From: Fundidesulfovibrio terrae
Lineage (GTDB): Bacteria; Desulfobacterota; Desulfovibrionia; Desulfovibrionales; Desulfovibrionaceae
NCBI RefSeq assembly: GCF_022808915.1
Contig: NZ_JAKZFS010000005.1
Coordinates: 1 to 64,000 of the forward strand
DNA: 64,000 nucleotides
Direction of reading: 5' to 3'
Positions 30,288 to 32,509 of the stretch are shown here, piece by piece (within the stretch, counting starts at the first letter, position 1; every line of letters starts with the position of its first letter). The position numbers and the translations under genes were made by a program. The notes below the pieces were generated by a model. It did not search any database, was not told the origin of the DNA, and saw nothing but the letters and a program-made list of their open reading frames with translations.

Positions 30288-31166
30288 TTACAGAATCCCG
30301 GACTTCTTCAGCACTTCCGAGAGCCTGGCTTCGACTTCCGGGGCCATGTTGACCAGGGGCAGGCGAAGCTCGGAGGACATTCTCCCCATGAGGCTCAGTG
30401 CGGTCTTGGCCGGGATGGGGTTGGTCTCGATGAACATGGCCCGGTTGAGGGGGGCCAGCTTGTAGTGCAGGCGCTGGGCCTTGGCGATGTCGCCCTTGCG
30501 CCACGCCTTGCACAGCTTGCGCATCATGGCAGGAGCCACGTTGGACACCACCGAGATCACGCCGTGGCCGCCGATGGCCAGGGTGGGCAGCACGGTGAAG
30601 TCGTCACCGGAGAGGACGGTGAAGTCCCGGCCGCAATACTCGATCACCTCGGAGATCTGGCACAGGTTGCCGGTGGCCTCCTTGATGCCGATGACTTCGG
30701 GCACCTGCTTCTTGAGCGCCGCCACGGTCTGGGGCAGCAGGTTCACCGAGGTGCGCCCGGGCACGTTGTAGACGATGAACGGCATGGACACGGCCTTGGC
30801 GATGGCCGCGAAGTGCGCGATCAGGCCAGGCTGGGTGGGCTTGTTGTAGTAGGGCGTGATGAGCAGGGCCCCATCGGCCTTGGCGTCCTTGGCGAAACGG
30901 GTGAGCTCGATGGCCTCGGTGGTGTTGTTGGATCCGGCTCCGGCCAGAACGGGTACTCGGCCTTTCACTTGATCCACGCATATTTTGATCACCTGGGCGT
31001 GTTCGGCGTGTGACAGGGTCGCTGACTCACCCGTGGTGCCGCAGGGAACAAGGCCGTCGATGCCCTGTTCGATCTGCCATTCGATGTGCGCGCGGTATGT
31101 CTCTTCGTCGACCGTTCCGTTCTTGAACGGAGTGACGAGAGCGGTGAAAGCTCCGGTAAACTGCAT
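30288..31166 (-). CDS. dapA: 4-hydroxy-tetrahydrodipicolinate synthase
   Basis: Condenses pyruvate with aspartate semialdehyde in the lysine/diaminopimelate pathway. 292 residues, identical in length to typical DapA. Schiff-base lysine K162 (GIKEATG), catalytic Y133 (VYNVPGR), T44/T45 (CGTTGES), Y107 and R138. ATG at 31166 with GGAGG. It is the last gene of the HU-selenoprotein-dapA stretch, 49 nt after the upstream stop. lysC, the first pathway enzyme, is at 52353. Confidence 0.97.
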   Translation of the reverse strand: MQFTGAFTALVTPFKNGTVDEETYRAHIEWQIEQGIDGLVPCGTTGESATLSHAEHAQVIKICVDQVKGRVPVLAGAGSNNTTEAIELTRFAKDAKADGALLITPYYNKPTQPGLIAHFAAIAKAVSMPFIVYNVPGRTSVNLLPQTVAALKKQVPEVIGIKEATGNLCQISEVIEYCGRDFTVLSGDDFTVLPTLAIGGHGVISVVSNVAPAMMRKLCKAWRKGDIAKAQRLHYKLAPLNRAMFIETNPIPAKTALSLMGRMSSELRLPLVNMAPEVEARLSEVLKKSGIL

Positions 31167-31215
31167 TCTGCCCTCCAAATTGGTTCGATTCGGCCAGGAG
31201 CCCCTGCCCCAGGGT

Positions 31216-32118
31216 CTACTTGGCCGGCTTGTCGCCCGGATCCGGCACGCTAAGGAGCAGCTGCTCCATGCCGGGATCGGGGATGTAGGCCTCGTCCAGC
31301 ACCACGGCCTGCGTGGTGTAGTTTGAGCCCTGCTCCCATTTGAACCCTTTGTCGCCCGGCCAGGCAAGAACGTCAATGGTGTAGATGGCCTTGCCCTTGG
31401 TGTAGGTGTGCATCCACAGCGTCTTGCCGCCCTGGGCGGGCTTGGCGGAGAACCCGACGCCCGAACCGCTGCCCAGGAGCACGTCCAGGTCAGGCTTGGT
31501 CTTGTCCAGGTAGTCGGACTCGGCCTGCACGCCCCAGGGGCTCACTCCGGCCACGAGCTTCACCTGCCCGCGAAGACCCTTGACGGCCTTGGCGATGGCC
31601 TGGATTGCGTCTGGGCCAGGGTCGTCGCCGGGCTTTTTGGCCTCGGGGAAGAACACCAGTCCGATCTTGCCCTTGGGGGTGTCCAGGACGACGGTCTTGG
31701 GCTCCTTGGGGGCCAGGACCTGCCAACCCTTGGGAGGCTGGGCGTTGACGGCGGCGAACTTGGCGGCCTCGGCCGGCGATATCGCTCCCGCGTCGTAGTT
31801 CAGGGCCTCATAGGCCTTGGCCAGGGGGGCGAACGCCTCGTCCATGGCGTGGTCGTGGCCGTCGTCGGATATGAATTCATAGGGGCCGGCGATGAAAACC
31901 GTCTGACCCTTGGTGCTCTCCTGGGAGCGGAACTTGCTGAACGCGCTGGCCCGCCGGGTCAGCCCACCAATGGTGTGGTTGCCTCAGGAGGGGCAGGGCT
32001 TCAAGTAGCCCCAGGAATTTCCGGAAAAGACGATGGACGCAAGCGGCTCCGCCTGGGCGGACGCACCGAAGCCAATGCAGGTGAAGAGCGCCATGAGGAG
32101 CGCTGCAAGAAAACGCAT
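31216..32118 (-). CDS. Probable selenoprotein (UshA-like secreted protein) with in-frame UGA at codon 45
   Basis: Reading from ATG 32118 gives a Sec signal peptide (cleavage near AQA-EP), the segment GNSWGYLKPCPS, then UGA (31986-31984), then GNHTIGGLTRRASAF and an open frame to 31216. That is 300 codons with one internal UGA. The UGA sits as C42-P-S-UGA45, a CxxU redox motif, and 28 nt on is the loop of a hairpin that fits the bacterial SECIS model (31945-31963). The GGLxRRA segment and overall shape resemble proteins annotated, as I recall, as UshA-like (seleno)proteins. The gene starts 9 nt after HU and is followed by dapA. Alternatives: a nonsense mutation in a Cys-containing homologue, with a truncated product from the internal ATG at 31845. 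selA/B/C/D are not in the window. Confidence 0.78.
31945..31963 (-). promoter_or_regulatory. Candidate bacterial SECIS hairpin
   Basis: RNA GCUGACCCGGCGGGCCAGC: 4-bp GCUG/CAGC stem, one A-C mismatch, 3-bp CCC/GGG stem and apical loop GGC beginning with G. The loop starts 28 nt after the UGA, inside the 16-37 nt window of the published bacterial SECIS model, which also wants a G in the first two loop positions. Confidence 0.7.
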
Positions 32119-32127
32119 CGTAAAAAC

Positions 32128-32403
32128 CTACTTGTTGAGAAATTCCTTGAGTTCCTTGCCTGGCCTGAAGAAGGGCAGGCGCTTGGGGGCCACGTTGACC
32201 ACCTCGCCGGACTTGGGGTTGCGGCCGGTATAGCCCTTGTACCCCTTCACCTTGAAGCTGCCGAAGCCGCGGATTTCCACGCGGTCACCGTCAACCAGGG
32301 CGCTTTTGATGGAGTCGATGAACGAATTGACCACGGCCGAGGCTTCGTCCACGTGGATTTCGCGGCTTTCGGCCAGGGCGTTGATGAGTTCGCTCTTATT
32401 CAT
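32128..32403 (-). CDS. hup: HU-family DNA-binding protein
   Basis: 91-residue nucleoid protein. The HU/IHF fold is clear: MNKSELINALAE helix, GFGSFKVKGYKGYTGRNP (DNA-binding arm with conserved Gly-Arg-Asn-Pro), and FRPGKELKEFLNK at the end. ATG at 32403 with GGAGG. A probable promoter lies just after the MinD-like stop. The selenoprotein gene starts 9 nt after its stop. Confidence 0.95.
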   Translation of the reverse strand: MNKSELINALAESREIHVDEASAVVNSFIDSIKSALVDGDRVEIRGFGSFKVKGYKGYTGRNPKSGEVVNVAPKRLPFFRPGKELKEFLNK

Positions 32404-32478
32404 GACGGCCTCCGTTTTCCGCCGCCACGATATTCGCCGGGCGGCCATGGGGTTCCAGACACGGAAATCACTTTTTCG

Positions 32479-32509
32479 TGTATATTGCGGATACCGTCGG
32501 CGCAGTCAA
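32479..32509 (-). promoter_or_regulatory. Promoter candidate for HU
   Basis: On the minus strand TTGACT (32509-32504) and an AT-rich AATATACA block; TATACA (32484-32479) gives a 19-nt spacer, ATATAC gives 18. The -35 starts right after the stop codon of the MinD-like gene. Confidence 0.45.

Follow-up and report, generated by a model that had tools for sequence, protein, structure and literature searches.

Selenoproteins related to UshA have already been described as sequence families. UshA-like (seleno)protein family 2 is tabulated with the motif CxxU and the remark 'GenBank annotated' in a 2026 review (PMC13188914), and a UshA-like family with the motif CxU appears both in a survey of 2008 (PMC2398784) and in a 2022 review (PMC9312934). 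Among the titles and abstract openings listed from the open-licence PMC literature, no functional study of family 2, which corresponds to the NCBIfam model NF049981, was found.

The gene studied here lies in a stretch of 64,000 nucleotides from Fundidesulfovibrio terrae (contig NZ_JAKZFS010000005.1, positions 1 to 64,000), which is called the window below. Its product scored 300.8 bits against NF049981 (cut-off 140), and the match runs from residue 28 to residue 288 and from position 2 to 261 of the 262 profile positions, which is nearly the whole mature protein. The CxxU motif of the family is present as CPSU, and no difference from family 2 was found. The name UshA-like (seleno)protein, which an earlier, sequence-only reading of the window had offered tentatively, is therefore the right one. 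As this selenoprotein family was already catalogued, the window gene adds a further member to it, and its novelty is modest. It does not belong to the sister family NF041198, against which it scored 41.7 bits with a cut-off of 275. The NF041198 proteins resemble it in their N-terminal layout, with a strand, a loop that carries PCGU and then GGLxRK or a similar sequence, and most of the matches listed contain one TGA. They differ in having CxU where the window family has CxxU, and often in carrying four CxxCH motifs at the C-terminus (8 of 10 loci, which were picked from the best matches). NF041198 was found over its cut-off in 39 of 198 genomes sampled across the phylum.

An in-frame UGA in a gene for a predicted secreted protein

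The coding sequence of the putative selenoprotein (31216..32118, minus strand, 300 amino acids) was delimited from its single in-frame TGA and the NF049981 score. It starts with the ATG at 32118-32116 and ends with the TAG at 31218-31216, and the only in-frame stop before that end is the TGA at codon 45 (31984..31986). The surrounding protein sequence reads PCPSUGNHTIGGLTRRA, in which the partner cysteine of the CPSU motif, Cys42, is encoded at 31993..31995. By eye, a signal peptide of about residues 1-23 (32050..32118) is predicted that ends in ASAQA just before EPL, an AxA site, and residues 2-17 form a helix in the structure model. The sequence-only reading had described this open frame, its one UGA, the signal peptide, the C-P-S-UGA context and the continuous protein beyond it, and all of these were recovered, the signal peptide by eye.

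A plain open reading frame call, as had been anticipated, begins at ATG 31845 and yields 209 amino acids, by which both the signal peptide and the redox motif are lost. Such a call agrees with an alternative by which translation simply ends at the TGA, or the TGA stems from a sequencing error or marks a pseudogene, leaving a 44-residue peptide and a separate protein from ATG 31845. Immediately upstream of this ATG no Shine-Dalgarno-like sequence was seen by eye. In four comparisons within the genus, third codon positions varied most on both sides of the TGA in the mature protein, an excess that was weaker in the signal peptide. An ordinary downstream start had been proposed as a counter-test to the selenoprotein reading, and it is instead upstream of the TGA that the conserved frame starts.

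The genome of the host (3.90 Mb in 7 contigs, 96.8% complete) was searched for the selenium machinery, as the sequence-only reading had proposed. All four components are present, each with a top match that exceeds the cut-off: selA (608.8 bits), selB (360.5 bits), selD (337.2 bits, with one in-frame TGA) and selC, the gene for tRNA-Sec (79.4 bits, gathering score 47). As its gene (L040, C1:1243285-1244208) contains the in-frame TGA, SelD is probably a selenoprotein too. A second tRNA-Sec match (L045, C4:319280-319367) reached 47.9 bits, just above the gathering score of 47, and is probably another tRNA.

Codon 45 and the downstream hairpin in relatives

Relatives were obtained by a search of the order that read through every stop. 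Among 199 genomes sampled, 119 had a match and 116 exceeded the NF049981 cut-off; the listed places over the cut-off contain one TGA, or no stop in 15. The loci that were fetched are a selection of these places, namely the best-scoring and some divergent ones, and their frames were cut at TAA and TAG. Together with the window they gave 97 gene copies, and the weak-match loci L098-L100 gave none. Two of the latter, L099 and L100, represent a further degenerate UshA-like branch, in which GDTQG and DAGDAF are present but a Cys/Sec motif is absent at the place of codon 45. For the analysis of codon 45 and of the hairpin, three copies identical over the 81 nt around codon 45 were removed, so that 94 distinct genes remained, the window included. 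Alignment A1 holds 77 of 96 proteins that were left after a motif filter, thinned at 80%. This filter failed to retain one Cys copy (L054), which is consequently absent from the tree and from the context count.

Of the 94 distinct genes, 79 carry TGA at codon 45 and 15 a cysteine codon, so that the check for Cys or Sec at this position in homologues turned out positive for every one of them. Position 45 is also the only column of A1 that is Cys or Sec in 77/77. Cys42 is kept in 75 of the 77 proteins, and G51, G52, R55, R56, P158, G218 and G242 are invariant in all of them. The CxxU pair is not universal, because two of the aligned proteins (L084, 5011-5919, and L062, 4870-5787) have kept Sec where Cys42 is missing.

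When the same 199 genomes were searched for selA, it was over its cut-off in 109 of the 113 genomes with the TGA form. The other four (G013, G023, G047 and G066) are 82-94% complete. Only Cys forms were found over the cut-off in 3 of 116 genomes (G082, G149 and G070). Of these, G070, which is 85% complete, has no selA and the other two have it, so the Cys forms do not simply track the loss of selenium use. In the sample of 198 genomes from the phylum, NF049981 was over its cut-off in 2, the host and one member of the same taxonomic family, and NF049981 may not occur outside the order. Those of its loci that are named, 24 in all, come from Desulfovibrionaceae, Desulfovibrionales, Desulfohalobiaceae and unclassified proteobacterial records. 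A gene 64% identical to that of the window is carried by Fundidesulfovibrio agrisoli SG106. A tree made quickly from 95 rows of the family and 6 of its sister, with many forks unsupported, needed 4 changes between Sec and Cys. It has a basal Cys group, so that the first change can be read in either direction. Copies of the Cys form and of the Sec form stand in tandem at 9 loci of one genus (L052-L055, L057 and L093-L096). Six of the Cys copies at these loci still have the full hairpin described below, in keeping with a replacement of Sec by Cys.

Downstream of the UGA, overlapping the GGLxRRA codons, a bSECIS-type hairpin can be drawn at 31945..31963 (minus strand), with the arms GCUG-A-CCC and GGG-C-CAGC around the loop GGC. 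It has 4+3 base pairs around one A.C mismatch, its apical loop lies 28 nt after the UGA and its energy is -9.9 kcal/mol when calculated on a 22-nt piece. The rules given for bSECIS elements ask for a loop of 3-9 nt with a G in the first two places, a stem of 4-16 bp, a distance of 16-37 nt from the UGA and an energy of at most -7.5 (PMC13188914), and the window hairpin conforms to them. When 41-60 nt around the window UGA were folded, the energy was no lower than that of shuffled sequences (z 0.2 to 1.0). An Rfam search of 31000-32500 with E up to 10 returned three hits, each under its gathering score.

As the folding energy around the UGA was not significant, the hairpin was tested by its conservation. 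All six scored pairs were intact in 71 of the 79 Sec genes, against 11.5 expected when the six codons were redrawn from the synonymous usage of each gene itself. In the Cys genes they were intact in 6 of 15 (Fisher p 6.6e-5 against the Sec genes, for genes that are related and not independent events). The loops of the Sec genes are GGC in 60, GGA in 14 and GUC in 5. Eight of the 79 Sec genes, among them the window gene, fall short of six pairs, and the A.C mismatch of the window gene also occurs in L076 and L077.

This imperfect hairpin, like the plain call from ATG 31845, speaks for an ordinary stop. Against this, the most conserved part of the family, with G51, G52, R55 and R56, lies between the TGA and ATG 31845, the stop is replaced by nothing else than a cysteine codon in the related genes, and the genome contains the Sec machinery. 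An ordinary stop, an error or a pseudogene is thus an exceedingly improbable explanation. As judged from these comparisons of sequence, the selenoprotein reading of the window gene is strongly supported, and the UGA very probably does encode selenocysteine in a secreted protein.

The fold and its metal site

Neither a Pfam scan of the window protein nor a phmmer search of the PDB with the window protein alone gave a match. A profile search of the PDB found 5'-nucleotidases (5h7w, E 4.2e-5) and SoxB (E 0.035), together with weak hits of the kind expected by chance. A structure model built from A1 (pLDDT 93.4, pTM 0.90) was compared with the PDB by Foldseek, which returned 106 matches with E up to 0.001. 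The best 50 of these 106 are 5'-nucleotidases/CD73 and SoxB, and the first has an E of 2.5e-15 and a TM-score by query of 0.66. As modelled, the window protein folds like the catalytic domain of UshA, CD73 and SoxB. It differs from these enzymes in that the aligned metal ligands are replaced, the C-terminal substrate-binding domain is absent and a CPxU motif has been added.

The dimetal ligands of Escherichia coli UshA are presumably D41, H43, D84, N116, H217, H252 and Q254. In an alignment with this protein, which is remote (hhalign probability 38%, E 3.3e-4), the first six correspond to N34, W36, Y80, P115, P194 and G218 of the window protein, and Q254 lies opposite a gap. The alignment with the host's own UshA, again a remote one (probability 92%, E 5.2e-7), places the same residues opposite D84, H217 and H252 and puts G220 opposite the second His of GGHSH. 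It stops short of D41/H43, and it positions N116 differently from the alignment with the E. coli protein. Across A1, the position of N34 is N in 69/77, and those of W36 and Y80 are most often Y (34 and 31, respectively, both with other aromatics). The commonest residue is P at the positions of P115 (41) and P194 (35, with D in 17), and G at those of G218 (77) and G220 (72). From these alignments the dimetal site looks lost, with a possible ligand kept at single positions in some members, and this leaves CPxU as the candidate site.

An intact 5'-nucleotidase was rejected on these grounds: the ligand positions are replaced and the C-terminal 5'-nucleotidase domain, for which Pfam gave no match, is absent, the protein having only 300 residues. 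Alternatively, the protein might still work as a hydrolase like UshA or SoxB, with a nucleotide or a sulfur carrier as its substrate and with Sec tuning the site. The fold does match 5'-nucleotidases and SoxB bound to SoxYZ. The replaced ligand positions and the missing Pfam match argue against it, as does the presence in the genome of another, complete UshA that has both Pfam domains; we consider such a hydrolase quite improbable. What the sequence suggests instead is a metal enzyme fold that was turned into a redox protein.

Gene neighbourhood and the proposed redox role

The window gene lies between genes that we take to be those of an HU-family DNA-binding protein and of dapA, names that were adopted from the earlier reading. 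The HU gene (32128..32403, minus strand) is just upstream, with 9 nt from its stop to the ATG, and dapA (30288..31166, minus strand) follows 49 nt downstream of the selenoprotein stop. Relatives were counted for their context in a set of 94 from which the window and identical proteins were left out. In 69/94, HU lies on the same strand no more than 400 nt upstream, and in 64/94 dapA follows within 1,500 nt downstream. The placement between HU and dapA had been recognized correctly, but its description as an odd place for a redox protein needs correcting, the position being mostly inherited gene order. With these counts, the position was rejected as a sign of function.

Six of the 94 relatives have none of the six reference neighbours and stand in two unusual contexts, three of the six being beside CcmF. 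The Sec paralogues L074 (from the genus of the window), L080 and L091 belong to three genera and share one gene block, which consists of a metal-resistance gene, CcmF, a TPR protein, the selenoprotein, a heavy-metal P-type ATPase and an M23 peptidase. Scanning of L091 gave the heavy-metal ATPase (TIGR01525, 597.9 bits, over its cut-off), both CcmF Pfam domains over their cut-offs (the four NCBIfam heme-lyase models all stayed below theirs), TPR repeats, a CcmH-type domain under its cut-off, and M23. In L080, Metal_resist was over and ZraP under the cut-off, and M23 was found as well. No frame with two or more CxxCH motifs was found at the L074, L080 and L091 loci. The Cys paralogues L058, L059 and L061 are located among pilin-like genes, an AAA ATPase and a GspE/MshE-type ATPase (scanned in L058). 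At three of the 10 PCGU loci (L181, L182 and L183) the proteins with four CxxCH stand beside frames with 9 and 16 CxxCH.

The heavy-metal P-type ATPase that adjoins the three Sec paralogues, and the metal-resistance (ZraP-like) gene near them, speak for the main rival, by which the Sec/Cys pair would bind a metal or haem, as in a periplasmic metal chaperone or sensor, and would not exchange thiols. No metal gene was seen by the main HU-dapA copies in the context count, which was made without neighbour-by-neighbour scans, and two members keep Sec without Cys42. Both observations argue against metal or haem binding, which we regard as unlikely.

The explanation preferred here is a genuine selenoprotein with a UshA fold devoid of the dimetal site, most likely acting as a periplasmic thiol/selenol redox protein, and we hold it to be probable. 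The UGA at codon 45 would be read as selenocysteine by the SelA, SelB, SelD and tRNA-Sec of the genome itself, with the hairpin whose loop lies 28 nt downstream guiding the insertion, both the genes and the hairpin being recognized by sequence. The protein would then be exported. Its likely working site is Cys42-x-x-Sec45, in the loop after the first strand, where the two residues may serve as a redox pair. As for partners, c-type cytochromes or their apo-forms could tentatively be considered: the paralogues at the side of CcmF, a TPR protein and a heavy-metal ATPase, and the haem motifs of the PCGU proteins, point to a thiol/selenol redox protein that is exported and tied to c-type cytochromes. 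By a wider proposal, which is possible at best and rather doubtful as it stands, family 2 and its PCGU sister would form a selenium-dependent class of periplasmic redox proteins on a metal-stripped 5'-nucleotidase fold. This class would serve c-type cytochromes: it might keep apocytochrome thiols reduced for haem attachment of the CcmF type, or it might hand electrons on to multihaem cytochromes.

A metal-free hydrolase fold with a Sec/Cys pair would, if true, represent an unusual change of chemistry, and the genus with Sec and Cys copies in tandem provides natural pairs with which to ask why selenium is kept.
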